From Zhihengliuella sp. ISTPL4 (GTDB lineage Bacteria > Actinomycetota > Actinomycetes > Actinomycetales > Microbacteriaceae): 64,000 nucleotides of DNA. The stretch lies in the NCBI RefSeq assembly GCF_002848265.1, contig NZ_CP025422.1, positions 1,642,727-1,706,726 on the forward strand. Reading direction: 5' to 3'. Below, one piece after another: positions 9,126 to 32,837 of this stretch. A program made the translations under genes and the position numbers. The notes beneath the pieces were generated by a model. The model worked only from the letters and a program-made list of their open reading frames with translations. It did no database searches and was not told the DNA's origin. Position 1 is the first letter of the stretch, and each line of letters begins with the position of its first letter.

Positions 9126-9808
9126 GCACGGTCGAGAACGCCAGCAAGTCGGAGCAGGCGTACGCCTGGATCCGCGCGCGCATCTCGGCGCACACCTACG
9201 GGCCCGGCTACCGCCTGGTCCTCGGTCCGATCGCCGAGGAGCTGGGGATGAGCGTCGTCCCGGTGCGCGAGGCGATCCGCCGCCTGGAGGCCGAGGGGCT
9301 CGTGACCTTCGAGCGCAATGTCGGCGCCCGCGTGACCCTTGTGGACGAGGGCGAGTACGCCCACACCATGCAGACGCTCGGACTCGTCGAGGGTGCGGCC
9401 ACGGCTCTGTCCGCTCCCCTGCTCGACGCGGACGCGCTCGCGCAGGCCGCGGAGGTTAACGAGCGCATGAGCCGCCTGCTCGACCACTTCGACCCGCACA
9501 CGTTCACCGAGCTCAACCGGCAGTTCCATTCCGTGCTGTTCGAGCCGTGCCCCAACCCGCACCTGCTCGACCTCGTGCACCGCGGCTGGGCCCGGCTCTC
9601 CGGCATCCGCGACTCCACCTTCGCCTACGTGCCCGGCCGCGCCCACCACTCGGTCGACGAGCACGCCCAGATCCTCGAGCTGATCCGCGACGGCGCCGAG
9701 CCGCTGGAGATCGAGCTCGCCGCCCGCAACCACCGGTGGCGCACGAGGGACGCGTTCCTCGACGCCCTGCACACCCGTTCCGTCCCCGCCGAAGGAGAAG
9801 CATCATGA
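9122..9808 (+). CDS. GntR family regulator, FadR/FCD type
   Basis: 228 residues. The GTG start at 9122 overlaps the preceding stop as GTGA. The winged helix-turn-helix (about 10-75) includes GPIAEELGMSVVPVREAIRRL. The all-helical FCD ligand domain follows, with ELNRQFHSVLFEP and a C-terminal ELAARNHRWR helix giving His residues of the usual metal site. Embedding inside the catabolic operon points to a local repressor released by a pathway intermediate. The window thus has two regulators for one pathway: IclR for the hydroxylase side and GntR for the ring-cleavage operon. Its stop overlaps the hpaE ATG as ATGA. Confidence 0.9.
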   Translation: MSTVENASKSEQAYAWIRARISAHTYGPGYRLVLGPIAEELGMSVVPVREAIRRLEAEGLVTFERNVGARVTLVDEGEYAHTMQTLGLVEGAATALSAPLLDADALAQAAEVNERMSRLLDHFDPHTFTELNRQFHSVLFEPCPNPHLLDLVHRGWARLSGIRDSTFAYVPGRAHHSVDEHAQILELIRDGAEPLEIELAARNHRWRTRDAFLDALHTRSVPAEGEAS

Positions 9809-11349: not shown

Positions 11350-11379
11350 CCCGATCCCCTGACGAGCAAGGACGCTGAC

Positions 11380-12546
11380 ATGACCGACAAGACCGCCAAG
11401 ACCCTCACCTCCTCCGGCTACTACGTGAGCCAGGAGGCCCCGATTCAGAGCGACAACCCCGTCGCGACGCCGAAGAGCACCCCGCCGGACATCCTGCGAT
11501 GCGCGTACATGGAGCTCGTCGTGACCGACCTGGCCGCCTCGCGGCAGTTCTACGTCGACATCCTGGGCCTGTACGTGACCGAGGAGGACGACGAGGCGAT
11601 CTACCTGCGCTCGACGGAGGAGTTCATCCACCACAACCTCGTGCTGCGTCAGGGACCGATCGCCGCGGTCGCCGCGTTCTCGTACCGGGTGCGGGCGGCG
11701 GAGGACCTCGACCGTGCTGTGGAGTTCTACACGGAGCTCGGCTGCGACGTGCGTCGTCAGGAGAACGGCTTCGTGAAGGGCATCGGCGACTCCGTGCGCG
11801 TCGTCGACCCGCTCGGGTTCCCGTACGAGTTCTTCTACGCCACCGAGCACGTGGAACGCCTGTCCTGGCGGTACGATCTGCACACCCCCGGGGAGCTCGT
11901 GCGCCTCGACCACTTCAACCAGGTCACTCCCGACGTGCCGCGCGCAGTGCGCCACTACCAGGACCTCGGCTTCCGCGTGACGGAGGACATCCAGGACGAC
12001 GAGGGCACCGTGTACGCCGCGTGGATGCGCCGCAAGCCCACCGTCCACGACACCGCGGCGACGGGCGGCGACGGTCCGCGCATGCACCACGTCGCCTTCG
12101 CCACGCACGAGAAGCACAACATCCTCGCGATCTGCGACAAGCTCGGGGCGCTGCGCCGCTCCGACGCCATCGAGCGCGGTCCCGGCCGTCACGGCGTGTC
12201 CAACGCGTTCTACCTCTACCTGCGCGACCCCGACGGCCACCGCGTCGAGATCTACACGCAGGACTACTACACGGGCGACCCGGACAACCCGGTCGTCACC
12301 TGGGACGTGCACGACAACCAGCGCCGCGACTGGTGGGGCACCCCGGTGGTCCCCTCCTGGTACACCGACGCCTCGCTCGTGCTCGACCTCGACGGCAACC
12401 CGCAGCCGGTGATCGCCCGCACGGACTCCAGCGAGATGGCGGTGACGATCGGTGCCGACGGCTTCTCCTACACCCGCGCGGACGAGGGCGAGAACTCGAT
12501 GCCCGAGTACAAGCAGGGCGAGTACAAGCTCGGCCACCAGCTCTAG
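11380..12546 (+). CDS. hpaD: 3,4-dihydroxyphenylacetate 2,3-dioxygenase (type I extradiol)
   Basis: 388 residues with four beta-alpha-beta-beta-beta modules. Against the Brevibacterium fuscum enzyme the active site is reproduced with a constant +23 offset. Metal ligands are H178, H237 and E290 (H155, H214, E267 there). Second-sphere residues are H223, H271, Y280, N180, W215, R266 and R316. The extra residues lie in the N-terminus (about 1-35). It opens the ring of homoprotocatechuate with O2 to 5-carboxymethyl-2-hydroxymuconate semialdehyde. Close relatives use Fe(II) or Mn(II), and sequence does not settle the metal. It lies 30 nt after hpaE and 9 nt before hpaH. Confidence 0.95.
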   Translation: MTDKTAKTLTSSGYYVSQEAPIQSDNPVATPKSTPPDILRCAYMELVVTDLAASRQFYVDILGLYVTEEDDEAIYLRSTEEFIHHNLVLRQGPIAAVAAFSYRVRAAEDLDRAVEFYTELGCDVRRQENGFVKGIGDSVRVVDPLGFPYEFFYATEHVERLSWRYDLHTPGELVRLDHFNQVTPDVPRAVRHYQDLGFRVTEDIQDDEGTVYAAWMRRKPTVHDTAATGGDGPRMHHVAFATHEKHNILAICDKLGALRRSDAIERGPGRHGVSNAFYLYLRDPDGHRVEIYTQDYYTGDPDNPVVTWDVHDNQRRDWWGTPVVPSWYTDASLVLDLDGNPQPVIARTDSSEMAVTIGADGFSYTRADEGENSMPEYKQGEYKLGHQL

Positions 12547-12555
12547 GAGGCGCCC

Positions 12556-13341
12556 ATGCTTTCTGAGGAGACGATCGCGCAGATCGCCGCGGAGCTCGCG
12601 GAGGCCGACCGCACGCACGGGGTGATCCCCCGCATCACGGCGCGGTACCCCGAGGCGACCGTGGAGGACTCGTACGCCATCCAGGGCGTCTGGCGCGACT
12701 CGCAGGTCGCGGCGGGCCGTCGGCTGGTCGGGCGCAAGATCGGCCTGACCTCGAAGGCCATGCAGCTGGCGACGGGGATCACCGAGCCCGACTACGGCGT
12801 CATGTTCGATGACACCGTGTACGAGTCCGGCGCGGAGATCCCCACGGAGCACTTCTCCAACGTGCGCATCGAGGTCGAGCTCGCGTTCGTGCTCAAGGAG
12901 CCTCTGGAGGGCCCCGACTGCACGCTGGAGGACGCCCTCGCCGCGATCGACTACGCCGTGCCGGCCCTCGAGGTGCTCAACTCGCACATCGAGCTCGAGG
13001 GCCGCACGATCATCGACACCATCAGCGACAACGCCGCCTACGGCGCGATGGTCCTGGGGACGGTGCGCAGGCGCCCGGACGAGATCGACCTGCGGTGGGT
13101 TCCCGGCGTGCTGTCCCGCAACGGGGAGATCGAGGAGACCGGCGTCGCCGCCGGCGTGCTCGGCCACCCCGCCACCGGGGTCGCCTGGCTGGCGAACAAG
13201 TTCCACCAGCACGGCGCGCGTCTGGAGGCGGGCGAGATCATCCTGGCAGGATCGTTCACACGCCCGATGTGGGTGTCGCGCGGCGACGAGGTGCTGTGCG
13301 ACTACGGACCGATGGGGACCATCACATGCCGCTTCGTCTAG
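12556..13341 (+). CDS. hpaH: 2-oxo-hept-4-ene-1,7-dioate hydratase
   Basis: 261 residues, hydratase/decarboxylase branch of the FAH fold. The Mg-binding carboxylates are E106 and E108 in [10 protein letters not shown] and E139 in PALEVLNS, the same numbers as in E. coli HpcG/Hpa[14 protein letters not shown] is the family substrate segment. It adds water to 2-oxohept-4-ene-1,7-dioate to give 4-hydroxy-2-oxoheptane-1,7-dioate for the aldolase. The ATG follows GGAGG after 5 nt. Its 3' end overlaps hpaI by 16 nt, which indicates translational coupling of the last two pathway steps. Confidence 0.93.
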
Positions 13342-14129
13342 TCCCGTCCTTCCGCGAGCAGCTCGCCGCGTCCGACCACCCCTTCGTGGGGATGTGGGTG
13401 TGCTCCGGCAGCCCGCTGCTCGCCGAGGTCGCCGCGGGCTCCGGGCTGGACTGGCTGCTCGTCGACATGGAGCACTCCGCCAACACGCTCGAGTCCGTGC
13501 TGACCCAGCTCCAGGCGGTCGCGGCCTATCCGGTCACCCCGCTCGTCCGGGTGCCGTTCAACGACGCGGTCGCGATCAAGCAGGTGCTCGACCTCGGCGC
13601 GCAGAACCTCATCGTCCCGATGGTGTCGTCCGCCGACGAGGCCAGGGCCGCCGTGGCCGCGACCCGCTATCCCCCCGAGGGCGTCCGCGGCGTCGGCAGC
13701 GCGCTCGCCCGCAGCGCCCGCTGGAACCGCGTCGACCGGTACCTGCAGGAGTCCGCGCAGCACGTGTCGCTGACGGTGCAGATCGAGACGGCCGCGGGGG
13801 TCGAGGCCGCCGCCGACATCGCCGCGGTCGACGGCGTGGACGCGGTCTTCGTCGGCCCCTCCGACCTGTCCGCGTCGATGGGCCGGCTCGGACAGCAGAC
13901 GCATCCGGACGTGGTCGCCGCCGTGGAGTCGGTGTTCGCCGCGGTCCATGGCGCCGGGAAGCCGGTGGGCGTGAACGCCTTCGACCCGTCCGCCGCCGAC
14001 GCGTATCTCGCGGCGGGCGCCGACTTCGTGGCCGTCGGCGCCGACGTCGCCCTCCTCGCCCGGGCCTCCGAAGCTCTCGCCGCCCGCTTCCTCCCCCGCT
14101 CCGACGCCTCCGGCCGCGCCAGCTACTGA
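13326..14129 (+). CDS. hpaI: 4-hydroxy-2-oxoheptane-1,7-dioate aldolase, class II
   Basis: 267 residues, HpcH/HpaI aldolase family. Catalytic and metal residues match E. coli HpaI at a +4 to +5 offset: H50 (VDMEHSAN), R75 (LVRVP), E154 (QIETAAGVE) and D179 (GPSDLSASMG). YPPEGVRGVG is the family loop. The retro-aldol step yields pyruvate and succinic semialdehyde, ending the pathway. The start overlaps hpaH. A 61-nt hairpin repeat begins at the base after its stop codon and probably forms the 3' end of the operon mRNA. Confidence 0.93.
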   Translation: MPLRLVPSFREQLAASDHPFVGMWVCSGSPLLAEVAAGSGLDWLLVDMEHSANTLESVLTQLQAVAAYPVTPLVRVPFNDAVAIKQVLDLGAQNLIVPMVSSADEARAAVAATRYPPEGVRGVGSALARSARWNRVDRYLQESAQHVSLTVQIETAAGVEAAADIAAVDGVDAVFVGPSDLSASMGRLGQQTHPDVVAAVESVFAAVHGAGKPVGVNAFDPSAADAYLAAGADFVAVGADVALLARASEALAARFLPRSDASGRASY

Positions 14130-17418: not shown

Positions 17419-17424
17419 TTGTTC

Positions 17425-18936
17425 ATGGTCCTACCTCTTGATGTGCCCCTCGTCCCCGCTCCGGTGTCCGCGAAGGCGCGGGGCGGACGCCTGCCGCTCA
17501 CCGCGACGACGCGAGTGCTCGGCTCCTCCCCCGCCGCCGGACAGCTGATCGACGCCGTCGAGCGTCGCACCGGCCTCCGCCTCGCCGCGGTGGAGTCCGG
17601 CCCTGCCGAGATCGAGCTGTTCGCCGACCCGGCTTCCTCTGCCCCGGAGGGCTACACGCTGGAGATCGGCGACCGCGCCGTCCTCATCGGCGCCGACGAG
17701 GCGGGGCTCTTCTACGGCGTCCAGACACTGCTGCAGCTGCTGCGGGAGGACGACGCCGGCTGGGGACTGCTCCGCGCCGACATCGCCGACGCACCGCGCT
17801 TCCCCCGCCGCGGCGTGATGCTCGATGTGGCCAGGCACTTCTTCGGCGTCGACGACGTGAAGCGGTTCATCGACAGCACCAGCGCCCTGAAGTTCAACCA
17901 CCTGCACCTGCACCTCACCGATGATCAGGGCTGGCGCGTGCACATCGACTCCTGGCCGCTGCTCACTGAGCGGGCCGCCGCCACCGCGGCGAACGGCGCC
18001 CCTGGCGGCTACTACACCAAGGACGACTACCGCGAGATCGTGGCGTACGCGGCCGCGCGTCACATGATCGTGATCCCCGAGGTCGACCTCCCCGGTCACA
18101 CCCACGCGATCGGCGTGGCCTACCCCGAGCTGGTCGAGGCCCCGGTCCTGAACGACGCGCTGGTCGCCCAGTCCGAGCAGCTCGGCCAGCCGCTCCCCGT
18201 GGCGGGAGAGCCCTACCTGGGCTGGGGCGTCGGGCACTCCAGCGTCCGCATCCACGAGGAGGAGACGTACCGGTTCGTCCGCGACGTCGTCCGCGAGCTC
18301 GCCGAGATGACGCCCGGGCCCTACATCCACATCGGGGGCGACGAGTCCCTCGGCACACCCCAGGCCGACTTCGACCTCTTCGCGGAGCGCGCGACGGCGA
18401 TCGTCGTCGAGGAGGGCAAGACCCCGGTCGCGTGGCACGAGATGGGATCCGCAGCCGACATCGCCCGCGGGACGGTCGGCCAGTACTGGGGCATGACGAC
18501 GCCGACGGGTACGCACGCCGAGGAGGCCACCCACTTCGTCGAGCGCGGCGGCGCCCTCCTCATGTCGGCGGCGGATGCGACCTATCTCGACATGAAGTAC
18601 ACGGCCGACTTCCCGCTGGGTCTCACGTGGGCGGCGATCATCGACGTCCGCCGCGCGTACGAGTGGGAGCCGACTGCCGTGCTCGACGTGCCGGACGGGG
18701 CGATCCTGGGCATCGAGGCCCCGCTGTGGTCGGAGACCACCCGCACGTTCGATGAGGTGGAGCAGCTCGTGTTCCCGCGCGCCGCCGCACAGGCCGAGAT
18801 CGCCTGGTCTCCGCGCGAGGGTGCGGGACGCACGTGGGAGTCCTTCCGCGACCGGCTCGGTGCGCTGGCACCGCTGTGGAAGGCTGAGGGGGTCGATTTC
18901 CACCCCGCCCCCGAGATCCCCTGGAGCGCCCGTTGA
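17425..18936 (+). CDS. beta-N-acetylhexosaminidase, GH20
   Basis: 503 residues, cytoplasmic (no signal peptide). An N-terminal GH20b-like alpha/beta domain spans about 1-125, then the TIM-barrel. HLTDDQGWR, PEVDLPGH and the catalytic Asp-Glu pair D306-E307 in HIGGDES are visible. Substrate-assisted hydrolysis releases terminal GlcNAc or GalNAc from imported oligosaccharides. It is coupled to nagA (the stop and TTG start overlap), so the products probably enter amino-sugar catabolism. The second GH20 domain of the window is in the fusion protein at 27927-31199, which suggests division of substrates. Confidence 0.93.
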   Translation: MVLPLDVPLVPAPVSAKARGGRLPLTATTRVLGSSPAAGQLIDAVERRTGLRLAAVESGPAEIELFADPASSAPEGYTLEIGDRAVLIGADEAGLFYGVQTLLQLLREDDAGWGLLRADIADAPRFPRRGVMLDVARHFFGVDDVKRFIDSTSALKFNHLHLHLTDDQGWRVHIDSWPLLTERAAATAANGAPGGYYTKDDYREIVAYAAARHMIVIPEVDLPGHTHAIGVAYPELVEAPVLNDALVAQSEQLGQPLPVAGEPYLGWGVGHSSVRIHEEETYRFVRDVVRELAEMTPGPYIHIGGDESLGTPQADFDLFAERATAIVVEEGKTPVAWHEMGSAADIARGTVGQYWGMTTPTGTHAEEATHFVERGGALLMSAADATYLDMKYTADFPLGLTWAAIIDVRRAYEWEPTAVLDVPDGAILGIEAPLWSETTRTFDEVEQLVFPRAAAQAEIAWSPREGAGRTWESFRDRLGALAPLWKAEGVDFHPAPEIPWSAR

Positions 18937-20105
18937 AGACCCTCTCCTCCGTGACCGGTTCCCTCGTCATCCACTCCGTCCGCCTGGTAGACCGCGGGGA
19001 GATCGTCGAGGACGCGTGGGTGCGCATCGAGGAGGGCGTCGTCGTCGCGCGCGGCACGGGCACGGACTGGGAGCCCGCGACCGACGTCGTGGACGGGGCG
19101 GAGGTGGGAGGCACCGGCGCGCTGCTCACGCCGGGCTTCGTGGACATCCACGGACACGGCGGAGCGGGTGCCGCCTACGACGACGGCGTGGACGCCATCC
19201 GGACGGGGCGGCGTCTGCACCGGGAGCATGGCACGACCAGGGCCGTCATCTCCCTCGTCACCGGGACGATCGACGACCTCGCTCGCAGCGTCGCCACGAT
19301 CGCGGCGTTGACCAGGACGGACGGGGACGTCCTCGGGTCGCACTTGGAGGGCCCGTTCCTCGACCCCGGTCACCACGGCGCCCATGAGCCTTCGCTGCTC
19401 CGCCACCCCGTCGCGGCCGACGTCGCCCGGCTGCTGGAGGCCGGAGAGGGCACCGTGCGACAGGTCACCATCGCGCCGGAGCTCCCTGGCGGAATCGACG
19501 CCGTCCGCCAGATCGTCGCGGCCGGCGCCGCCGCCGCCGTGGGACACACCGATGCCGACGCCGCGATGGCCGTCGCGGCCTTCGAGGCCGGCGCCTCGCT
19601 GCTGACCCACGCGTTCAACGCCATGCCCGGCATCCACCACCGCGCTCCCGGTCCGGTGCTGGCCGCGGCCGCCGACCACCGGGTGATCCTGGAGGCCATC
19701 GCCGACGATGTCCATCTCGACCCGCATGTCGTCAAGCTCGTGTTCGATGCGGCGCCGCACCGCGTCGCGCTCATCACCGACGCCATGGCAGCCGCAGGAA
19801 GCGCCGACGGACACTACGACCTCGGTGCGGTGAAGGTCACCGTCGAGAACGGCGTGGCCCGCGCCGACGACACGGGCTCGATCGCCGGCTCCACGCTCAC
19901 CCAGGACGTCGCCCTGCAGCGGGCCGTCGCGGCGGGCGTCGCCCTGCCGGAGGTCGTGCGCGCGCTCACCGAGACGCCCGCGCGGGCGATCGGACGCGAT
20001 GCGCACCTCGGTGCGCTGCGTCCTGGGCTGCTCGGCGATGCCGTGCTGCTGGACGCGGAGCTGCGCGTCGCGCGGGTCTGGACAGGACCGGCGCTGCCCG
20101 CCTAG
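18933..20105 (+). CDS. nagA: N-acetylglucosamine-6-phosphate deacetylase
   Basis: 390 residues, amidohydrolase superfamily. Metal-site His pair is H73/H75 in DIHGHGG. HLEGPFLDPGHHGAHE, HTDADAAMAV and THAFNAMPGIHHR follow, and LITDAMAAAG carries the catalytic Asp. It removes acetate from GlcNAc-6-P to give GlcN-6-P for NagB. The TTG start overlaps the hexosaminidase stop as TTGA and has GGAG 6 nt upstream. An in-frame GTG at 18951 is an alternative. nagB and a ROK kinase that complete the route are encoded 5 kb further on, on the other strand. Confidence 0.93.
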   Translation: MKTLSSVTGSLVIHSVRLVDRGEIVEDAWVRIEEGVVVARGTGTDWEPATDVVDGAEVGGTGALLTPGFVDIHGHGGAGAAYDDGVDAIRTGRRLHREHGTTRAVISLVTGTIDDLARSVATIAALTRTDGDVLGSHLEGPFLDPGHHGAHEPSLLRHPVAADVARLLEAGEGTVRQVTIAPELPGGIDAVRQIVAAGAAAAVGHTDADAAMAVAAFEAGASLLTHAFNAMPGIHHRAPGPVLAAAADHRVILEAIADDVHLDPHVVKLVFDAAPHRVALITDAMAAAGSADGHYDLGAVKVTVENGVARADDTGSIAGSTLTQDVALQRAVAAGVALPEVVRALTETPARAIGRDAHLGALRPGLLGDAVLLDAELRVARVWTGPALPA

Positions 20106-20600: not shown

Positions 20601-20621
20601 GTGTGCCCCGGGACCAGATGG

Positions 20622-22724
20622 ATGACCGTGCACCGAGAGAACACCACACCAGACGAGACCATCGGCGATGCCGACCTGATCCTTCGCGTCCGCTCCGGCG
20701 ACAGGGGGGCGTTCGGGGAACTCTGGAGGCGGCACTATCCCTCAGGAATGGCCGTCGCGCGTTCGGTGACGTCGTCGATCGATCCCGATGATCTGGTGCA
20801 GGAGTCCTACACCCGCATCTATCAGGCGATCCTCAAGGGCGGCGGCCCCAATGGGTCGTTCCGCGCCTACCTCTTCACCAGCATCCGCAACACCGCGGCC
20901 GCGTGGGGACGCGCGCGCCGCGAGACGGCGATCGACGAACTCGACACGGTCGCCGACCCGGACAGCACCGAGCACGCCACGAACGAGGCGCTCGACCGCA
21001 GCCTCACGGCCCAAGCCTTCCGCAGCCTCCCCTCCCGGTGGCAGGAAGTCCTCTGGTACACCGAGATCGAGCAGATGAAACCGCAGGAGGTCGCTCCCCT
21101 CCTCGGGATGAAGGCGGGTGCGGTGTCACAGCTCGCCTTCCGCGCTCGTGAGGGACTGCGCGAGGCCTGGATCCAAGCGCACCTCCGCAGCGCCAGCCCG
21201 GGCTCCGAATGCCAGTGGACGATCGAGCACCTCGGCGCCTACTCGCGCGGCAACCTCGCCACCCGCGACCACCGTCGCCTGGAGCTGCATCTGAACGAGT
21301 GCGCCCGCTGCATGATCGTCGCCGCCGAGGCGAAAGACGTGTCCAAGCGCCTCGCGCTGGTGCTGCTTCCCCTGGTTCTCGGCGCGACCGGCGCCTCCGG
21401 CTACCTCGCCGCCCTACAGGGCGGTGCACCTGTCGTCGCGGTGGCGGCGATGTCCTCCACCGTCCCCGGGGCCGTTTTCCTCGGCGACGGCGGCGTCGGC
21501 CAGGCGTCTGCCGGCGCGGCGGGCGGCAGCGCGGCCGGCTCTGCCGGCGGTGCGGGCACGGGAGCGAGCTCAGGCGGCGTCTTCACGGGCATGGGCGCCG
21601 TCGTCGGCGCCGGTTCCGCTGCCCTCGTGGTCGCCGGCGTCGTCGCAGCGGCCGCCATCGTCCCCGGGCTCGCAGGGGCGAATCCCGCCACCTCGCTGCC
21701 CAGCGCCTCCGACACCGATCCGTCGTCGATCACGACCGACATCGCCCCGGATTCCTCGCTCGACCTCGATGAGCCCCTGGTGATCGAGACGCCGCCCGAC
21801 GATGAGACACCTGCCCCTCCGGTCGAGGAGGAAGCGGCTCCACCGCCCTCCACCGAGACCGGGCCCGACGCTGCTCCCGCCACCCCGGAGATCCCCGCGG
21901 CGCTTCCCGAGGCGACGCAGCCGCCGGTCGCCCCCGTGGACCCGGTCGACCCGGCGGACCCGGTCGACCCGGCGGACCCGGTCGACCCCGTGGACCCGGT
22001 CGACCCCGTGGACCCGGTCGACCCCGTGGACCCGGTCGACCCCGTAGACCCCGTAGACCCCGTAGACCCGGTCGACCCCGTAGACCCCGTAGACCCCGTA
22101 GACCCGGTCGACCCCGTGGACCCCGCGATCCCCACGGACCCGCCCACCTGGAGCACCGCCGACGTCTGGCTCGACGTGGATCTGCACTGGTACTACGTCG
22201 TGCCGATCGCCGGCGCCCCGGGTACGATCGTGCAGGCCCTCCTCGGCGGCGAAGACGCCGGTCGCGTCGTCCTCGGCGAGGACGGCACCGGCACCCTCGA
22301 GCTCCGCGCTTCGTGGGAACAGTTCTGGCTCGCCCGGCGCGTACCGGTGACGTTCCGATACCTCCTCCCGTCCGGAGAGGCGGGCCCCTCGGCCGACACC
22401 ACGCTCTACGCGTTGGAGCCCGAGGGCGCGGGCGCGGATGAGCGCACGGCGGCTTCTGCGCCCGTCGAGCAGCCGGCGGTCGTCATCGACGAGGCCGAAC
22501 CGGTGGCGGCTCCGGTCGAGGCACCGGCGCCCGACGCGGCCTCCGAGGAGAACGCGGCACCCGCCGTCGAGGTCGCGGACCCCGTCCTGCCGGGGCCCGC
22601 CGCAACGGCGCCGACAGACGCCGCCCCGGCCGCCGAGGCGGCACCGGCCGCGCCCGCACCCGCCGATGACGCCGCCGCCGTGCAGACGGAGGCCCCGGCC
22701 GAGGCGGCCACCGTCGCCGAATAG
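20622..22724 (+). CDS. membrane-bound ECF sigma factor fused to zinc-finger anti-sigma-like domain and long tail
   Basis: 700 residues from the ATG at 20622; a GTG at 20601 after GGGGA is an alternative. Sigma region 2 spans about 17-100 ([17 protein letters not shown]) and region 4 about 125-185. A zinc-binding anti-sigma motif follows, H223-x3-C227-x2-C230. A hydrophobic helix spans 244-265, then a Gly/Ala/Ser linker and a second helix at about 327-350. A PVD tandem repeat covers 438-500, then an Ig-like Trp-containing segment and an Ala/Pro-rich end. ECF sigmas with built-in zinc finger and membrane anchor are known in actinobacteria (ECF52/53-like groups). The tail may sense envelope state. 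With two helices its topology is unsettled. Confidence 0.85.
21933..22121 (+). repeat. 21 x 9-bp tandem repeat (Pro-Val-Asp)
   Basis: Twenty-one in-frame 9-mers of the form CC(C/G)-G(T/C)N-GAC encode PVD or, twice, PAD. A 36-bp higher-order block (three CCCGTAGAC units plus one CCGGTCGAC) occurs twice. The rare Val codon GTA appears here in six units. The pattern indicates recent slippage or unequal exchange. Confidence 0.9.
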
Positions 22725-24890: not shown

Positions 24891-25670
24891 TCAGATGCCC
24901 TGCCAGGAGGGCTTGTTCGCGAACGTGTAGCGGTAGTAGTCGGCGAGCCGCAGCTTCGAGGCGGCGGCCTCGTCGACGACGACGGTCGCGTGCGGGTGCA
25001 GCTGGATGGCCGACCCGGGCAGCAGCGCGGTGAGCGGGCCCTCGACCGCGCCGGCCACGGCCTCGGCCTTGCCGGCGCCGAACGCCAGCAGCACGAGGTG
25101 TCGAGCCTCGAGGATGGTGCCGAGGCCCTGCGTGATGCAGTGCATCGGAACGTCGTCGATGGCGTCGAAGAAGCGGGCGTTGTCCTCGCGGGTCTGCTGG
25201 GTGAGGGTCTTCACCCGCGTGCGGGAGGCGAAAGAGGACCCGGGCTCGTTGAAGCCGATGTGCCCGTCCGTGCCGATGCCGAGGATCTGCAGGTCCACCC
25301 CGCCCGCCGCGGCGATGGACGCGTCGTAGTCCACCCCCGCGTGCTGAATGGTCGCCTCCGCGCCGTTCGGGACGTGGATGCGCTCAGGGTCGAGGCCGAG
25401 CGGCTCGACCACCTCGCGGGTGATCACCGAGCGGTAGCTCTCCGGGTGGGAGGGATCGATGCCGACGTACTCGTCCAGTGCGAAGCCGCGCACCTGCGAG
25501 ACGTCGCGTCCCGCGAGGCGGCTGCGGAGAGCCTGATAGACCGGCAGCGGGGTCGATCCGGTTGCGAGTCCGAGCACCGCGTCGGGGCGGCGGTCGATGA
25601 GTTCGACGATCTCGGTGGCGACCAGGGCACCGGCGGCCTCGGCATTCTCGACGATGACGACCTCAGCCAT
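24891..25670 (-). CDS. nagB: glucosamine-6-phosphate deaminase
   Basis: 259 residues. GLATGSTPLPVYQAL is the phosphate loop. Catalytic residues correspond to E. coli D72, D141, H143 and E148 at a -6 offset: D66 (FALDEYVG), D135 and H137 (GTDGHIGF) and E142. It converts GlcN-6-P to fructose-6-P and ammonia. AAGGAGA precedes the ATG at 25670. Its first codons overlap the ROK kinase gene by 8 nt, making repressor-kinase-nagB a compact unit at the 3' end of the amino-sugar/D-amino-acid cluster. Confidence 0.96.
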   Translation of the reverse strand: MAEVVIVENAEAAGALVATEIVELIDRRPDAVLGLATGSTPLPVYQALRSRLAGRDVSQVRGFALDEYVGIDPSHPESYRSVITREVVEPLGLDPERIHVPNGAEATIQHAGVDYDASIAAAGGVDLQILGIGTDGHIGFNEPGSSFASRTRVKTLTQQTREDNARFFDAIDDVPMHCITQGLGTILEARHLVLLAFGAGKAEAVAGAVEGPLTALLPGSAIQLHPHATVVVDEAAASKLRLADYYRYTFANKPSWQGI

Positions 25671-26628
25671 GCGGAACGATCTCCTTCTCAGATTGGGATG
25701 CGCCCACCAGGGCGGCGCCGAAAGCGGCGGCGGGCGAACCCGCGGGGAGCAGTTCGATTCTCTCATCCAGCCGGAGGGACCTCAGGAACGGTGACGCCTC
25801 GGCCCCCGCGTGCAGAGCCGCACGGATCCCTTCCGCAAGCCGTCCGCCCAGAGCGGTGAGGCCACCGCCGATGACCACGGTCTCGACGTCGGCGGACAGC
25901 ACGAGAACGCGCACGGCCGCTGCCGCACCGAAGAAGAGGTCCGCCTGCAGCGCCAGGGCGTGCGGATCCCCCGCCTCGGCCGCGTCGACGATGTCCTTGA
26001 CGGGGAGGGCGCCAGGGCGCCCCCAGGCCTTGGCCAGAGCGCCCCCACCGCAGAAGGTCTCCACGCAGCCGCGCTGTCCGCACCCGCAGAGCCGCCCACG
26101 GGGATCGACCGAGAGGTGCCCGACCTCGCCGGCGGTTCCCCGCGAGCCCCGCCAGATGCGTCCGTCCACGACGATGCCGGCGGCGACCCCGGTGCCGAGG
26201 TTGAGATAGGCCATCGAGCCCGCGACGTCGCTCAGGACGGCGGCGCCGAGCGCGGCGGCCTTCACGTCGTTCTCCACCCGGAAGGGAATCCCGAGCGCCT
26301 GCTCGGCGCGCGCCGCGAGGTCGAGCGATTCCACCCCGAGGTTCACGGCATGGAGAACACGCCCCGCCTCCGCGTCCACGAGACCGGGGATGCCGATACC
26401 GGCGGAACCGACGGCGGACAACGGGAGCCCGCTCTCCTCGGCGAGCGCCGCGACGGTCGAGACGATGCTGTCGACGACGGCGTCCTCGCCCCAGCCGGTG
26501 GGGCGGCGGAGTCGGGCGAGGATCGTCCCCGCCGGGTCGACGGCGACCGCGTCGATCTTCGTACCGCCGACGTCCAGGCCCACGCGAAGGGGCCGACCGA
26601 CGAGGTCGGCGAGGGCAGCGACGGTCAT
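25663..26628 (-). CDS. ROK family sugar kinase, probably for (N-acetyl)glucosamine
   Basis: 321 residues. The ATP phosphate loop is GLDVGGTKID (17-26). ENDVKAAALG supplies the catalytic Asp, GEVGHLSVD the sugar-contacting Glu-His, and CGCGQRGCVE the ROK zinc site. No N-terminal DNA-binding domain is present, so it is a kinase. The substrate is inferred as GlcNAc, GlcN or ManNAc from its overlap with nagB and its position behind the ROK repressor. Ribosome binding before the ATG at 26628 is weak, so coupling to the repressor ending 31 nt upstream is likely. Confidence 0.88.
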   Translation of the reverse strand: MTVAALADLVGRPLRVGLDVGGTKIDAVAVDPAGTILARLRRPTGWGEDAVVDSIVSTVAALAEESGLPLSAVGSAGIGIPGLVDAEAGRVLHAVNLGVESLDLAARAEQALGIPFRVENDVKAAALGAAVLSDVAGSMAYLNLGTGVAAGIVVDGRIWRGSRGTAGEVGHLSVDPRGRLCGCGQRGCVETFCGGGALAKAWGRPGALPVKDIVDAAEAGDPHALALQADLFFGAAAAVRVLVLSADVETVVIGGGLTALGGRLAEGIRAALHAGAEASPFLRSLRLDERIELLPAGSPAAAFGAALVGASQSEKEIVPHG

Positions 26629-26659
26629 CGGATGCCGATCCCGGTCGTCGTCGCGGTGA

Positions 26660-27847
26660 TCACGACACCCCCAGTTGGCCGGAGAGCACCATGACGGCGG
26701 CACCGCGGAGCACGATGTCGTCCTGACGGGTCAAGCGCACCATGACGTCTTCGAAGACACCCTCGAGCGTGCGCGCGTGCAGCGTCTCGACCGCCGCGTC
26801 GATGAGGGTGCCGTCAAGCAGTCCGGTGGGCCCGGAGAGCACGACCTCGGACAGGTCGAGCGCGGCGACGATGGGGGCGATGGCGATGGCCATGCGGGTG
26901 CCGGAGTCACGGAGGATCTCCTCGCGCGCGGCCGGGTCGGCGTCGATCGCCTCCTGCATCCGGCTCACGCTCAGCCACGCCTCGAGGCAGCCGATCTTGC
27001 CGCAGGCGCACCGAGGGCCGCCGTCGGTGCCGACGACGACGTGACCGATCTCCCCCGCGGCGAATCGGCTGCCGAGGAGTGGCTGGCTTCCGGTGATCAG
27101 CCCGGCACCGACACCGCGACCGATCTTGATGAGCATGAAGTCGGCTTCCGCCTCGCCGAAGGTGTACTCGGCGAGCACCGCCGCGTTCGCGTCGTTCCGA
27201 GCGAGGACGGGGAGGTCGAGCTCGAGGCTGAGCTTCGCCTCGAGCGGGAAGTCGGTCCAGCCGAGGTTGGGCGAGCTGAGCACGAGTCCGTCCGGGCGCA
27301 CGACACCCGGGGTGCCGATGCCCACGCCGAGCACGGGCTGCGTGGCGATCTCGACGAGGCTCTGTGCGAGCGCGCGCAGCGCCTCGTACGCCGCATCGCC
27401 GTCGGGCCTCTCGGGCCGCGGCACCTGCCGTCGTTCCAGCACGTCGCCGTCGAGGCTGAGGACGGCACCCTCGAATGCCGTCGGCCCGGAGAGGTCCAGT
27501 CCGATGATCTGGTGGCCGACCCGGTCGATGTCGATGAGGATGGGCGGCTTGCCCGGGCCGACGGCCTCGCGGACGCCGATCTCGACGACGATGCCGTCGG
27601 CGATGAACTCCGCGACGAGGTCGGAGATCGTCACACGGGTGAGGCCCGTCTCACGAGAGAGATCCGCGCGACTCATCGCCCCCGAGTGGTAGAGCGTCTG
27701 CAGCACGAGAGCGCGGTTGTGTCCGCGCGCGTGCTCGGGGAGCACCTTGGTGCGCGAACGGAGGTGACGCGCGGGGCCGAAGGCGTGCGCGTTCGCGGCG
27801 ACGAAGTCTGTCGTCGCCGCTGGGCGCTGGTCATCCGAAACGGACAT
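26660..27847 (-). CDS. ROK family transcriptional repressor (NagC/XylR type)
   Basis: 395 residues. A winged helix-turn-helix lies at about 40-95 (NRALVLQTLYHSGAMSRADL, then LTRVTISDLV). The ROK domain follows with RNDANAAVLAE, GEIGHVVVG and the zinc motif CACGKIGCLEAW. Such proteins bind DNA without sugar and release on amino sugars or their phosphates. An 8-5-8 palindrome four bases before its start codon is a probable autoregulatory operator. A weaker copy of the same layout covers the start of the D-amino-acid deaminase gene, suggesting one regulon for the whole cluster. Confidence 0.92.
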   Translation of the reverse strand: MSVSDDQRPAATTDFVAANAHAFGPARHLRSRTKVLPEHARGHNRALVLQTLYHSGAMSRADLSRETGLTRVTISDLVAEFIADGIVVEIGVREAVGPGKPPILIDIDRVGHQIIGLDLSGPTAFEGAVLSLDGDVLERRQVPRPERPDGDAAYEALRALAQSLVEIATQPVLGVGIGTPGVVRPDGLVLSSPNLGWTDFPLEAKLSLELDLPVLARNDANAAVLAEYTFGEAEADFMLIKIGRGVGAGLITGSQPLLGSRFAAGEIGHVVVGTDGGPRCACGKIGCLEAWLSVSRMQEAIDADPAAREEILRDSGTRMAIAIAPIVAALDLSEVVLSGPTGLLDGTLIDAAVETLHARTLEGVFEDVMVRLTRQDDIVLRGAAVMVLSGQLGVS

Positions 27848-27850
27848 GTT

Positions 27851-27871
27851 TGTTAGTAGACCTTACGAACA
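27851..27871. promoter_or_regulatory. probable ROK repressor operator
   Basis: TGTTAGTA-GACCT-TACGAACA: 8-bp arms match at 7 of 8 positions around a 5-nt centre. It abuts the repressor start codon. A related 8-5-8 arrangement (AATTTGTA-GAGGC-ATCTAACA) lies at 32393-32413 over the deaminase start. Confidence 0.6.
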
Positions 27872-27926
27872 GAGATTGTGCAACTGTCCCGCGCGATTCC
27901 GCGGGCAGGGTTACCGAAACGTGACA

Positions 27927-30900
27927 TCAGGCCGTGCCCGACGGGGCCTCGTCCGACGCCGATCGGAGCAGGCGTTCGACGAGCCCGGCGACGATCCCCT
28001 CCCGCGTCTCGATCGACATCGGCTTCCCAGGCACGCCCGGTCGCCGCTGCTCCGGCGTCGGACCGTCCAGCGGACGATACCGCACCCCCGCCGCCGCGAG
28101 ACGGCGCAGATGCGTGGGCAGGCGTCGCGCGAAGTCGGCGTACGGCGCCGGTTCTCCGCCGTCCCACAGCCGTTCCGCGATCGCGGCGAGGCGGGGGAAC
28201 ATCGCGAAGTCGACCCGGTCCCTGCTCGGCAGGTGCTCGGTCCAGACGTTCGCCTGACCGCCGACCGCGCCGTCGACGACGCGGAACGAGTACGACCGTT
28301 CGATGGTGAGCGGCGGGCCGACCCGGATGGGCTCCTCCGTCGACTCGGACTGCGGATAGTCGAGGTAGACCTCGAGGTCCGGACAGCCCACGACCGGGAT
28401 CCCCCGTCGCAGCGCCTCCCGCATGGCGACCGGGCCCCGCCAGGCGAGGATCCGCACTCCTTCGGGAACCTCGCCCTCCAGCACCTCGTCCCAGGCCAGG
28501 GCCGTTCGCCCCCTGCGGCGGACGTGCTCGACGAAGTGTGCTGTGAACCAGGGCTGCACATCGTGCGCCGTCTCCAGCCCGAGCTCTCGCATCCGCGCCG
28601 CCGCCGCGGGGCTCTCCGCCCATTCCGTGACCGGGACCTCGTCGCCACCGATCCCGATCCACGCGGACGGGAACACCTCGCACAGCGCATCGATGGCGGC
28701 ACGGCCGAACGCCAGCGCTTCCTCGGTCGGCGCGAGGGTGCGCGCGTTCACGCCGAAACGCTCCCACGGTCCGGTCGCCGGCTCCGCGACATCGACGTTG
28801 CCGAGCTCCGGATAGGCGGCGAGCGCGGCCTGGACGTGCCCCGGCAGCTCGACCTCGGGCACGAGCGTGACGAAGCGCTCGGCCGCATACCGCACCAGCT
28901 CGCGCAACTCGGCTGTGGTGTAGAAGCCCTCGTGCACGCCGGGCTCCACCGTCGCCTCCGGACCGTGTCCGCGCTGGGTGGCCTCGCGCCGTGCGCCGAC
29001 CTCGGTGAGCCGCGGGTAGCCGGGCACCTCGAAGCGCCATCCCTGATCGTCCGTCAGGTGCAGGTGCAGGATGTTGAGCTGATGGTCCGCCAGCAGGTCG
29101 ATGAGGCGGCGCACATCCTCCGCGGGACGGAAGTGCCTGGCCACATCGAGCATCGCGCCGCGCCAGGCATACGCGGGTGCCCCCTCCCAGCGCCCCGCCG
29201 GAATCGTCGCCGCAAGCGCGGGATCCCCCTCGGGATCGCGGAGCTGGCGGAGTGTCGTCACCCCGCGGAAGACGCCCTCGGGGGTCGCACCGGCGACCTC
29301 GACCCCGGAGGCGGCCACGGTCACCCGGAAAGCCTCGTCAGGGTGACGCCCCGCCGTGGCTGCTACGGTTCCCAGCTCCGCGTCGACCACGAGACGGATG
29401 GCGGGCAGGGAGCCGTCCGCTCGCCCGCCGCCGAGACGTCCGACGGCGGCGGCCAGCTCGGGAGCGGCGTCGATGGGCGTCTCCGGGGTCCACCGGAACC
29501 CGGGCGCCAGCGGGTCGATGCGCGCGGAGATGCGCGGCACGGTCGCGCGCGGCGCCGGCGGCGGCATGCGCAGCGCACGTCCGGCGACAGCCCCCGTCGG
29601 CTCACCGTCCGTGACGACCGGCACGCCGGCGACGAGCACCTCGTGCACCCCGCGCGGCGTTCCGTGCGGGTCCTCGAACGTCGCCCCCGCCGCGATCGTC
29701 TCGGGGTCGAACAGCACCAGGTCGGCGGTAGCCCCGGCGCGGAGGACGCCGCGCGGCGCGTCGCCGCGGTCGAGGCCCAGGCGCGCGGCCGGGTTGCCGG
29801 AGAGGTGGCGCACGGCTTCCTCGAGGCTCAGCACCCCGAGTTCCCGGACGTAGTGCCCGAGATAGCGGGGGAAGGTGCCGCGTCCGCGGGGGTGCGGCCG
29901 CGCTCCGATGAGGATGCCGTCGCTGCCGCCGGAGTGCCGGGGGTGCCGCATGATGGCTCGGACGTTGTCTTCGTCGCCGATGTGCATGAGCACGCCGGTG
30001 GCTCCCGCGTCGGCGAGGATCGTGTCGATCACGACATCGACGGCCCGGCGCCCCGACTCGGCGGCGATGTCGGCGACCGTCCGGCCGACGAGTCCGGCCA
30101 GGGCGGGGTTCGCGGTCCCGGAGATCTGGATCACCGACCAGTCGGCGACCTCCCCGTGGAAGCCGTCGCACCCGATCTCCTCGAGCTCCACCCGGACGGC
30201 CTCGCGCCCTCGCGCGTCGAGGGCGGCCAAGGAGCCCAGCAGATCACCGGTCGCCGCCAGGCGGCTCGGCAGGAGGGCGGAGAGGGTGGTCGCGCCCGGC
30301 AGGTACGGATACGTGTCCAACGTGACGTCGACCCCATCGGCCACCGCCTCGTCCACGAGCGCCAGCAGCTCCGCGGAGCGGCCCCGGTTCGGCGCGAAGT
30401 TCATGGTCGCATGCGTGAGGTGGACAGGGCACCCGGTGCGGCGGCCGATCTCGATCGCCTCGCGATACGCGTCCAGGGCAGCACCGCCGTAGCTGCGCGT
30501 GTGCGGCGCCCAGTAGCCTCCGCGTTCCGCGACCACGCGGCAGAGGACCTCCAGCTCGGCGACATCGGCGTACATCCCCGGCGTGTAGGTCAGGCCACTC
30601 GACATTCCGAAGGCCCCGGCGTCCAGAGCCTGGCCGAGGAGGTCGACCATGGCCGTGATCTCCTTGGTGGTCGCCGGGCGGTTGTCGTGGCCGACGACGA
30701 TCATCCGGAGATTGCCCTGCGGCACGAGGACGGCCGCGTTGGCCACGGCCACGCCGTCGATCGCCCCCAGCAGATCGTCCATCGACCGCCACGGCACGGC
30801 CCCGGGCAGCCCGTTCCAGCCCGCGATCTGCGCGGGGATGACAGCGGCGGTGGCATCGTCCAGCGGCGCATAGCCCAGGCCGTCCTGCCCGAGCACCTCG

Positions 30901-31199
30901 GTCGTGACGCCCTGACGGATCTTCGCGTCGTGCGCGGCGCCCCGGAGCACCGCGAGATCGCTGTGCGCGTGCATGTCGATGAACCCGGGCGCGAGCACCA
31001 GGCCGGCCGCGTCGACCTCGACCGCACCGTCCGGCAGCTCGAACGTCCCTGCGTCGCCCTCGCGGACGACCGCCACCACCCTGGCCCCCTCCACCGCGAC
31101 ATCCGCGACGAACCGCTCGGCGCCGGTGCCGTCGACGACGGTCGCGCGCCGATAGACGCGTACCAGGCCGGCCGCGGCCTTCTCGGCGCTCAGAAGCAT
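27927..31199 (-). CDS. N-acyl-D-amino-acid deacylase / GH20 beta-hexosaminidase fusion
   Basis: 1090 residues, one uninterrupted frame, no signal peptide. Residues 1 to about 545 are a D-aminoacylase-type amidohydrolase: H77/H79 in DMHAHSD, GMSSGLTYTPGMY, H233 (PHTRSYG), H263 (HLTHATMN) and D427 (GGSDG), then PHPRGRGTFPRYLGHYVRE. The GNCG loop that gives the Cys metal ligand in classic enzymes reads GQDG (105-108). After a linker at about 550-580, residues 585-1060 form a complete GH20: b-domain, HLTDDQGWRF, PEVELPGH, catalytic D853-E854 in GIGGDEVP, and WDE 903-905. Expected roles are hydrolysis of N-acyl-D-amino acids and release of terminal GlcNAc. The start overlaps the deaminase stop by 10 nt. 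Confidence 0.9.
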   Translation of the reverse strand: MLLSAEKAAAGLVRVYRRATVVDGTGAERFVADVAVEGARVVAVVREGDAGTFELPDGAVEVDAAGLVLAPGFIDMHAHSDLAVLRGAAHDAKIRQGVTTEVLGQDGLGYAPLDDATAAVIPAQIAGWNGLPGAVPWRSMDDLLGAIDGVAVANAAVLVPQGNLRMIVVGHDNRPATTKEITAMVDLLGQALDAGAFGMSSGLTYTPGMYADVAELEVLCRVVAERGGYWAPHTRSYGGAALDAYREAIEIGRRTGCPVHLTHATMNFAPNRGRSAELLALVDEAVADGVDVTLDTYPYLPGATTLSALLPSRLAATGDLLGSLAALDARGREAVRVELEEIGCDGFHGEVADWSVIQISGTANPALAGLVGRTVADIAAESGRRAVDVVIDTILADAGATGVLMHIGDEDNVRAIMRHPRHSGGSDGILIGARPHPRGRGTFPRYLGHYVRELGVLSLEEAVRHLSGNPAARLGLDRGDAPRGVLRAGATADLVLFDPETIAAGATFEDPHGTPRGVHEVLVAGVPVVTDGEPTGAVAGRALRMPPPAPRATVPRISARIDPLAPGFRWTPETPIDAAPELAAAVGRLGGGRADGSLPAIRLVVDAELGTVAATAGRHPDEAFRVTVAASGVEVAGATPEGVFRGVTTLRQLRDPEGDPALAATIPAGRWEGAPAYAWRGAMLDVARHFRPAEDVRRLIDLLADHQLNILHLHLTDDQGWRFEVPGYPRLTEVGARREATQRGHGPEATVEPGVHEGFYTTAELRELVRYAAERFVTLVPEVELPGHVQAALAAYPELGNVDVAEPATGPWERFGVNARTLAPTEEALAFGRAAIDALCEVFPSAWIGIGGDEVPVTEWAESPAAAARMRELGLETAHDVQPWFTAHFVEHVRRRGRTALAWDEVLEGEVPEGVRILAWRGPVAMREALRRGIPVVGCPDLEVYLDYPQSESTEEPIRVGPPLTIERSYSFRVVDGAVGGQANVWTEHLPSRDRVDFAMFPRLAAIAERLWDGGEPAPYADFARRLPTHLRRLAAAGVRYRPLDGPTPEQRRPGVPGKPMSIETREGIVAGLVERLLRSASDEAPSGTA

Positions 31200-32407
31200 G
31201 TCGCCACCGCGCCGATCACCCGCGGGTCGGCGGCGTCGGGGTCGTCGATCACGGCGACGACGCGCCACTTGTCGAAGGCGGTGCACGGATGCGAGAGGCC
31301 CAGGCGGACGACGTCGCCCACGTCGACCGTCTCCCCGTCGGCGGGCCGCAGGAAAGCGTGCTGGTCGTTCAGGGCCGTGACGGCGCCGGCGACGGACTGC
31401 GGCACGGGGAGGTCGATGTCGAACGGCACGTCGCGGCGCCCGGCGTCCAGCAGGGCGAGCCCGGGCTCCGGGTGCGACACCACACGCGACCAGGCGTGCA
31501 TCGCCGAGCGCAGCGGTGCGGTGTCGGTGAGCGGGCCGAACGGCGACATGCGGGAGTAGAAGCCGTCATCGTGGATCTGGAACGCCCCCGACCGCAGCAC
31601 GACCTCGGCCTCTCCGCTCACCGTCCCGAGCACCGCTGCGGCGCGGTCGGGGAAGGCACTCCCGCCGGCGCTGAGCACGGGGCGGAGGCCGTCCGGATAG
31701 CGCAGCCGGCGGTGCAGCTCGATGAGCGTGGCGAGGAAGCCGTCGACCGCCGCGACGGAGTCGGCGGATCGGTCCGGGCCGAAGGGCCCCTCGTAGCCGG
31801 TCACCCCGGCAAGGCGGAGGCCGGGAGCCGCCGCGATGGCCTCGGCGATGCGCTCGCCCTCCCCCACCGTCCTGGCGCCGGTCCGTCCCTGTGCACCGCC
31901 GAGCTCGACGAGCACGTCGAGGGGGCGCGGGGCGTCGGCGAGCGCCTCGGCGAGGATCGCCACACCGGCGAGGGAATCCGCCCCGCACAGGATCCGCAGA
32001 TCCGCATCGGCGACGAGCAGCGCGCCCAGCTCACGCGCGGCCGCGCCATCGGTCACCCCGTTGGCGATGAGCACCGTGTCGACGCCGGCGTCGACGGCGA
32101 CGCGGGCCTGCCACGGCGTCGCGACGGAGATGCCCCAGGCTCCGGCGTCCAGCAGCCGCTGCCACAGGGCCGGGGCCATCGTGGTCTTGCCGTGCGGAGC
32201 GAGGCGGACGCCCTCCCGCGCGGCCCAGCCGAACACCGTGTCCTCGTTGTGCGCGATCGCGTCGGCGTGCACCGTGAGCACCGGGGTCTGGAGGTCGGAG
32301 AGGCGCAGGTCGGCAGCGGCGACCTGCGACAGCCGCAACCCCGTCGCGCGCGCCGGGAACCCCTTCGCCCAGGTGCCGAGAACGGGATCCGGAATTTGTA
32401 GAGGCAT
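31190..32407 (-). CDS. D-amino-acid deaminase (D-serine/D-threonine dehydratase-like)
   Basis: 405 residues, PLP fold type III. The alanine-racemase-like barrel holds the PLP lysine K74 in PHGKTTMAP. The C-terminal D-serine-dehydratase domain has the zinc pair H373 and C375 in SHPCTAFDKW. Family members turn D-serine or D-threonine into a 2-oxoacid and ammonia through an enamine; D-threonine aldolases share the fold, so cleavage is the alternative. It heads the operon containing the deacylase-GH20 fusion, fitting removal of the freed D-amino acid. RidA, which hydrolyses enamine/imine products, is divergently encoded 25 bp away. TAGCCT lies 6 nt before the ATG, so the mRNA is probably leaderless. 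Confidence 0.87.
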   Translation of the reverse strand: MPLQIPDPVLGTWAKGFPARATGLRLSQVAAADLRLSDLQTPVLTVHADAIAHNEDTVFGWAAREGVRLAPHGKTTMAPALWQRLLDAGAWGISVATPWQARVAVDAGVDTVLIANGVTDGAAARELGALLVADADLRILCGADSLAGVAILAEALADAPRPLDVLVELGGAQGRTGARTVGEGERIAEAIAAAPGLRLAGVTGYEGPFGPDRSADSVAAVDGFLATLIELHRRLRYPDGLRPVLSAGGSAFPDRAAAVLGTVSGEAEVVLRSGAFQIHDDGFYSRMSPFGPLTDTAPLRSAMHAWSRVVSHPEPGLALLDAGRRDVPFDIDLPVPQSVAGAVTALNDQHAFLRPADGETVDVGDVVRLGLSHPCTAFDKWRVVAVIDDPDAADPRVIGAVATCF

Positions 32408-32432: not shown

Positions 32433-32837
32433 ATGACCGCGAAGACACGAGTTTCCACCGACGCCGCCCCCGCCCCCGCGCACACGTTCTCGCAGGGCGT
32501 CCGCAAGGGCCCGATCGTCCAGGTCTCCGGCCAGGGCCCCGTGGACCCGCAGACCAACGAATACCTGTACCCCGGCGACGTCGCGGCACAGACCACCCGC
32601 ACCCTCGAGAACGTCAAGGCCATCGTCGAGGCATCCGGTGCCACCTTCGACGACGTCGTGATGCTCCGCGTGTACCTCACCAAGCGCGAGGACTTCCCGA
32701 TCATGAACGAGGCCTACGGGGCGTTCGTGGAGGCGCACACGACCGGGGGCGTGCTCCCGTCTCGCACCACCGTCTTCACCGGCCTCCCCCGGGAGGAGAT
32801 GCTCGTCGAGATCGACGGACTCGCCGTCGTCGACTGA
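32433..32837 (+). CDS. Rid family enamine/imine deaminase
   Basis: 134 residues, YjgF/YER057c/UK114 fold. Substrate-carboxylate Arg is R111 in LPSRTTVFTG, where Ser replaces the commoner Ala of the PAR motif. VSGQGPVDPQT and NVKAIVEASGATFDDVV are family segments. RidA hydrolyses 2-aminoacrylate-type intermediates released by PLP dehydratases. Its divergent pairing with a D-amino-acid deaminase is functionally sensible because it would speed product release and stop damage to other PLP enzymes. A 10-bp hairpin terminator follows. Confidence 0.93.
   Translation: MTAKTRVSTDAAPAPAHTFSQGVRKGPIVQVSGQGPVDPQTNEYLYPGDVAAQTTRTLENVKAIVEASGATFDDVVMLRVYLTKREDFPIMNEAYGAFVEAHTTGGVLPSRTTVFTGLPREEMLVEIDGLAVVD

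Follow-up and report, generated by a model that had tools for sequence, protein, structure and literature searches.

When lytic polysaccharide monooxygenases (LPMO) attack chitin, the fragments are left with an oxidised end. The closest described system is the ong cluster of Pseudoalteromonas prydzensis, which PMC9537276 presents as encoding a GH20 enzyme (OngA), a deacetylase (OngB), a deaminase (OngC), a RidA protein (OngD) and KdgK. According to PMC9537276 and PMC12017989, PpOngB is the deacetylase of N-acetyl-D-glucosaminate (GlcNAc1A) in the oxidative chitin pathway, and the pathway for the oxidised end is placed by them in Gammaproteobacteria and one Betaproteobacterium. Another glucosaminate route is predicted in archaea (PMC12343721). 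A Pseudoalteromonas cluster with the ong layout was found in sequence data. Here, a gene of Zhihengliuella sp. ISTPL4 is described, lying in a window of 64,000 nucleotides (contig NZ_CP025422.1, positions 1,642,727 to 1,706,726), which joins an amidohydrolase of D-aminoacylase fold and a GH20 beta-N-acetylhexosaminidase in one protein. The best reading is that an OngA-like and an OngB-like enzyme have been fused here to act on oxidised amino-sugar ends.

As in the ong cluster, a GH20 enzyme, a D-aminoacylase-fold deacetylase, a D-serine-deaminase-like enzyme (hereafter DSD) and a RidA protein are encoded together, and the clusters of the unfused relatives of the gene add a PfkB kinase and a 2-keto-3-deoxy-6-phosphogluconate (KDPG) aldolase. 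Unlike in the ong cluster, the GH20 enzyme and the deacetylase are a single protein, the deacetylase belongs to a different clade and carries Asp at the position of the metal Cys, and a NagC-type ROK regulator, a ROK kinase and NagB stand in place of MurR/RpiR and KdgK. Moreover, the bearer belongs to the Actinobacteria and not to the Gammaproteobacteria, and OngA is predicted to be periplasmic in the published account, whereas the fused protein has no evident signal peptide: no long hydrophobic stretch was seen at its N-terminus, judged by eye without a signal-peptide predictor.

A conserved fusion of two catalytic domains

The frame of the fused gene starts with ATG, contains no internal stop, and overlaps the 3' end of the upstream DSD gene by 10 bases (Table 1). 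A long open reading frame also lies on the opposite strand (27846-31559, +, partly translated), and a codon-position scan picked the minus-strand frame. Pfam places Amidohydro_3 at residues 61-529 (E 6e-25), GH20 domain 2 at 607-667 and the GH20 catalytic domain at 677-1013 (E 6e-91). In the AlphaFold model (mean pLDDT 83.3, pTM 0.74), both domains are complete and residues 548-550 are a weak spot; in the Foldseek lists for this model the two known folds take up the places, and no other possibility is excluded by them.

The sequence-only reading of the window had already proposed this union in one 1090-residue frame, with the catalytic Asp-Glu pair of GH20 and without naming a strand. Both points hold, and the strand is the minus one. 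It had considered that a stop might be missing or the sequence be in error near 29,560; this is ruled out by a single open frame in nine genomes (the host, G000, and G001, G002, G005, G014, G021, G022, G029 and G034) and by full-length homologues. In all nine, the contig spans the whole gene; in G023 the fused gene reaches a contig end, and in G220 it is split across two contig ends. Of 346 database homologues, the 120 listed are full length (1058-1127 residues), carry both Pfam catalytic domains and are 77-90% identical to the host's protein, the named organisms among them being Microbacterium. His77, His79, Asp106, His233, His263, Tyr297, Asp427, Arg438 and the GH20 Asp853 are kept in 121/121 fused proteins, and Glu854 in 120. 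The fusion is real and conserved.

Matches spanning both halves are confined to one genus among the sampled genomes. The candidates scored per genome were at most 3 in a 246-genome class sample, 13 in the genus scan and 2 in another scan, so absences are less firm than presences. A literature search (open-licence papers, top-ranked matches, titles and abstracts) gave nothing on this fusion or on an actinobacterial ong-type pathway, and the sequence-only reading had likewise stated that no described enzyme is known to join these activities.

Active sites and relatives of the two halves

The C-terminal half has the catalytic barrel, the Asp-Glu pair and the domain 2 of GH20. Its nearest solved structure by sequence is the Arthrobacter aurescens hexosaminidase 3rcn (383 bits), which differs from the fusion in being a stand-alone chain of 543 residues with no deacetylase.

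Regarding the N-terminal half, the best matches among solved structures are D-aminoacylases (256 bits), an N-acyl-D-glutamate deacylase (236), a Klebsiella deacylase (207) and PpOngB (205). The top NCBIfam match of the fusion, PRK09061, scores 185 bits against a cut-off of 340, so this half has no curated subfamily assignment. It presents the D-aminoacylase-like barrel of subtype V amidohydrolases with HxH and the catalytic Asp, and it shares with the D-aminoacylases AfDam (1m7j) and BbDam (3gip) the fold, two further His, and the Arg and Tyr for the alpha-carboxylate. It differs from them in having Asp106 where they have the Cys ligand and Thr265 where they have Lys, in a longer insertion and in the sugar-acid gene context. 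Subtype V is defined in PMC12017989 by a Cys/His/His beta-metal site, and this half departs from it in every fused protein through Asp106.

The residues were also compared with a Pseudoalteromonas OngB, confirmed as kin of PpOngB. In PpOngB numbering, HxH, both metal His, Tyr194, Tyr285, Asp368 and Arg379 are kept. The insertion is about 40 residues longer than in OngB, and the loop at Gln298 is built differently, with the longer insertion, in a region where the sequence alignment is unreliable. As a separate observation, the Klebsiella protein deposited as an N-acyl-D-amino-acid deacylase (PDB 9g5m/9gv8) scores 552 bits to the Pseudoalteromonas OngB versus 435 for D-aminoacylase and has the same Ser-Ser-Ser and Gln stretch as that OngB; it may be a GlcNAc1A deacetylase.

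A tree of 55 amidohydrolase rows was built by a quick method, with two OngB-type rows and without AfDam and BbDam. GQDG is present in 49 rows and GNCG in 4, and 2 match neither pattern (one GADG, one GNCS). All 10 fused rows group in a single clade (support 100), whose nearest relatives are unfused genes of G343 and G328, from the same family (support 98). The unfused gene of G328 adjoins the same sigma and GlcD genes as the fusion, an arrangement that looks like the pre-fusion state. Membership of the fusion in the OngB family was rejected on both clade and residues.

The operon and its counterparts in other genomes

DSD lies upstream of the fusion, and the ROK regulator, the ROK kinase and NagB lie downstream; a second GH20 gene and a NagA-like gene follow about 5 kb past NagB. 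With NagB, the ROK kinase and the NagC-like regulator, the gene content identifies the operon as one for N-acetylglucosamine (GlcNAc), and no muropeptide gene was recognised among its genes. The close homologues of DSD are 31-34% identical to a Pseudoalteromonas OngC, and its nearest solved structure is a D-serine deaminase.

Table 1. Features of the fused gene and its surroundings, in window positions
Feature	Position	Strand	Basis
Fused coding sequence, 1090 aa: D-aminoacylase-fold amidohydrolase and GH20 beta-N-acetylhexosaminidase	27927..31199	-	Translation, Pfam, AlphaFold
Amidohydrolase half, residues 15-547	29559..31157	-	Pfam, alignment, model
GH20 half (domain 2 and catalytic barrel), about residues 549-1046	28062..29555	-	Pfam, structure matches
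GH20 catalytic pair Asp853-Glu854	28638..28643	-	Alignment of 121 fused proteins
DSD, fold-type III pyridoxal-phosphate (PLP) D-serine dehydratase/deaminase-like, OngC-like by context	31190..32407	-	Pfam, structure match
RidA family protein (OngD counterpart), divergent from DSD	32433..32837	+	
ROK-family NagC/Mlc-like regulator, under equivalog cut-offs	26660..27847	-	Pfam, NCBIfam
ROK-family sugar kinase, under equivalog cut-offs	25663..26703	-	Pfam, NCBIfam
NagB, glucosamine-6-phosphate deaminase, above curated cut-off	24891..25766	-	NCBIfam
Second, separate GH20 hexosaminidase	17419..18936	+	
NagA-like GlcNAc-6-phosphate deacetylase, scoring 221.7 bits against a cut-off of 225.65	18933..20105	+	

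Eight other fusion genomes were fetched over the whole stretch. The order LDT-RidA-DSD-fusion-ROK-ROK-NagB-NUDIX(-GlcD) is kept in five of them (G001, G002, G005, G029 and G034, the G002 stretch stopping before GlcD), and G014, G021 and G022 present the same order minus DSD.

The unfused relatives were collected from named genomes by a scan with an 8-row alignment, which gave at least 494 of them; the best 80 were kept (22 genera, 37 Streptomyces) and their neighbours were called by BLAST against reference genes. Near these 80, DSD was found at all loci, RidA, a PfkB kinase and IclR at 72 each, the gluconate symporter GntP at 52, KDPG aldolase at 26 and GH20 at 6, the lower counts being minima, as 17 of these loci span less than 19 kb. 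A PF10282 lactonase lies near eight of the loci, six of which also have GH20 and a sugar-binding-protein gene, and a Pfam check of two such loci confirmed the lactonase, GH20, binding protein and permease. The kinases of three clusters (L033, L060 and L040) have a 2-keto-3-deoxygluconate (KDG) kinase model as their top match, well below its cut-off. In G042, which has three LPMO matches, GH20, amidohydrolase, DSD and RidA are separate consecutive genes with a ROK regulator one gene on. In Amycolatopsis and Actinokineospora (L161 and L162), the unfused amidohydrolase and DSD genes have as neighbours a beta-propeller lactonase, GH20 and an ABC transporter of oligosaccharide type; by gene content, these are candidate complete oxidised-chitin loci.

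Furthermore, 40 genomes of the same genus were compared, with the amidohydrolase taken at E <= 1e-60 and DSD at E <= 1e-20. The amidohydrolase is present in 15, being fused in 11 (counting G023 and G220) and only unfused in G018, G026, G028 and G239. DSD occurs in exactly the same 15 genomes and the other 25 have neither (Fisher p 2.5e-11, uncorrected for kinship). The three fusion genomes without DSD in the operon (G014, G021 and G022) carry it at another locus, next to genes for a PfkB kinase and a KDPG aldolase, and no second DSD is present in the eight that have one in the operon, a match with a chance of 1 in 165 if the genomes were independent. G014 and G021 are sisters in the tree and G022 is not their sister, so two losses of DSD are likely. 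The PF10282 lactonase was also tried as a genus marker and is uninformative there, being present in 40/40 genomes.

G239 offers a natural single-activity version of the gene. Its fused gene (L095, 8558-11083) has 841 codons, with a GH20 half 74% identical and an N-terminal half that has lost HxH, GQDG and the catalytic Asp stretch, and the same genome holds an unfused amidohydrolase with DSD, RidA, IclR, a PfkB kinase and KDPG aldolase. Such decay in a genome with a separate cluster is an indirect link between this half of the fusion and the sugar-acid pathway.

Two other parts of the window can be mentioned. A catabolic run at 7653-14129 (+) encodes a FAA hydrolase/RraA, an aldehyde dehydrogenase, a glyoxalase/dioxygenase-family protein, a FAA hydrolase and an HpcH aldolase, and we take it to be of homoprotocatechuate type. 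An ECF sigma factor of 707 residues is encoded at 20601-22724 (+); it has a long C-terminal part as well as a putative zinc-finger.

Proposed function and its alternatives

The fusion is probably bifunctional and cytoplasmic, acting on chitin fragments oxidised at C1. The likeliest "D-amino acid" substrate of its N-terminal half is GlcNAc1A, the oxidised end of such fragments, which is itself an N-acetyl-D-amino acid and thus suits the D-aminoacylase fold. Observed are the domains, the invariance of their catalytic residues, the operon and the gene neighbourhood across the family; import and all of the reactions are what we infer from them. The cell would import GlcNAc-GlcNAc1A or some longer oligomer, and the GH20 half would cut it to GlcNAc and GlcNAc1A. 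GlcNAc would then pass to the ROK kinase, NagA and NagB, and GlcNAc1A would be deacetylated to D-glucosaminate by the amidohydrolase half. The adjoining DSD would convert D-glucosaminate to KDG, with RidA clearing the enamine, and a putative KDG kinase and the KDPG aldolase encoded elsewhere in the genome would yield pyruvate and glyceraldehyde-3-phosphate. Joining the halves would couple the release of the oxidised end to the first committed step.

Away from the operon, the host has an eda (KDPG aldolase) gene above its cut-off and two PfkB genes with a KDG kinase model as top match, well below the cut-off. At L061 (G000:C1:1846000-1862000), a PfkB gene with this top model is divergent from an RpiR-type regulator and has a sugar-binding protein and a permease nearby; judging from these genes, it is a possible partner locus for transport and phosphorylation.

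Several observations weigh against this function. LPMO_10 was not found in 10 of the 11 fusion genomes, the host included, and full-length GH18 was found in none of the 11, with partial matches over the family cut-off in 7. These LPMO_10 and GH18 searches, which did not extend to further chitinase families (GH19 among them), do not support the host as a self-sufficient degrader of chitin. The half does not branch with OngB and lies far from it in the tree, the OngB metal ligand Cys97 is Asp106, the key specificity residue Ser292 is Thr304 in 121/121 fused proteins, Lys254 is Thr265 and Ser291 is Ala. Nor is the GH20 half supported as a special relative of OngA, since unclustered GH20s match it equally well (45-50% for the Streptomyces-like group g44, versus 43-47% for four clustered loci and 45% for G042). 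In the 246-genome class sample, LPMO_10 occurs in 31 of the 40 amidohydrolase carriers (N-terminal half at E <= 1e-118, leaving out weaker kin about 35-45% identical) versus 35 of the 206 others by hand count; by genus the figures are 7/12 versus 17/91 (p 0.006), with kinship not removed, which confounds the association. Finally, OngC acts on D-Ser and D-Thr too, so the presence of DSD does not settle the substrate.

This last point touches the alternative of a genuine N-acyl-D-amino-acid deacylase in the N-terminal half, with the fusion recycling cell-wall or glycopeptide pieces with GlcNAc and N-acylated D-amino acids while DSD degrades D-Ser- or D-Thr-like amino acids. The D-aminoacylases as closest solved structures, the D-serine deaminase nearest to DSD and a RidA that fits a D-serine dehydratase agree with it, and so does Thr in the place of Ser292, the state of D-aminoacylases in the account of PMC12017989. 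On the other hand, the subtype V Cys ligand of AfDam and BbDam is replaced by Asp throughout, and the PfkB kinase, KDPG aldolase, gluconate symporter and lactonase neighbours would be superfluous for an N-acyl-D-amino acid. We regard this alternative as unlikely. The sequence-only reading had pointed the same way, to cell-wall D-amino acids and muropeptides; its fusion of two halves stands, and that substrate is not the best reading in view of the missing metal Cys, the unfused kin in sugar-acid clusters, and an operon for GlcNAc in which no muropeptide gene was recognised.

A different N-acyl-2-amino sugar acid, or a glycoside of one, is quite improbable as the substrate; examples would be an epimer of the galacto or manno type, or an end that comes from a sugar oxidase and not from LPMO. 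The same neighbourhood would fit, LPMO_10 is missing from most fusion genomes, and the top models of the kinases, below cut-off, are bifunctional KDG/KDGal kinases; however, chitin is the abundant source, and the amidohydrolase carriers are LPMO-rich in the class sample, with the confounding by kinship already given. That the halves act on unrelated substrates, as a neutral accident of two neighbouring genes, would agree with fused matches in one genus and one clade, but it is very improbable given active sites kept almost without exception at 77-90% identity and GH20 in unfused clusters too (Amycolatopsis, Actinokineospora, G042).

Returning to GlcNAc1A as the substrate, we tentatively propose that Actinobacteria may possess a second, separately evolved GlcNAc1A pathway. 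It would consist of the Asp-ligand deacetylase clade with an OngC-like deaminase, RidA, KDG kinase, KDPG aldolase and aldonate symporter in at least 22 genera including Streptomyces, and it would be fused in Microbacterium, in scavengers of the LPMO products of others. If this is true, many Actinobacteria, Streptomyces included, would have their own version of the oxidised-chitin pathway, the genes annotated there as D-aminoacylase would be misnamed, and the fused enzyme would be a ready-made probe of the pathway.

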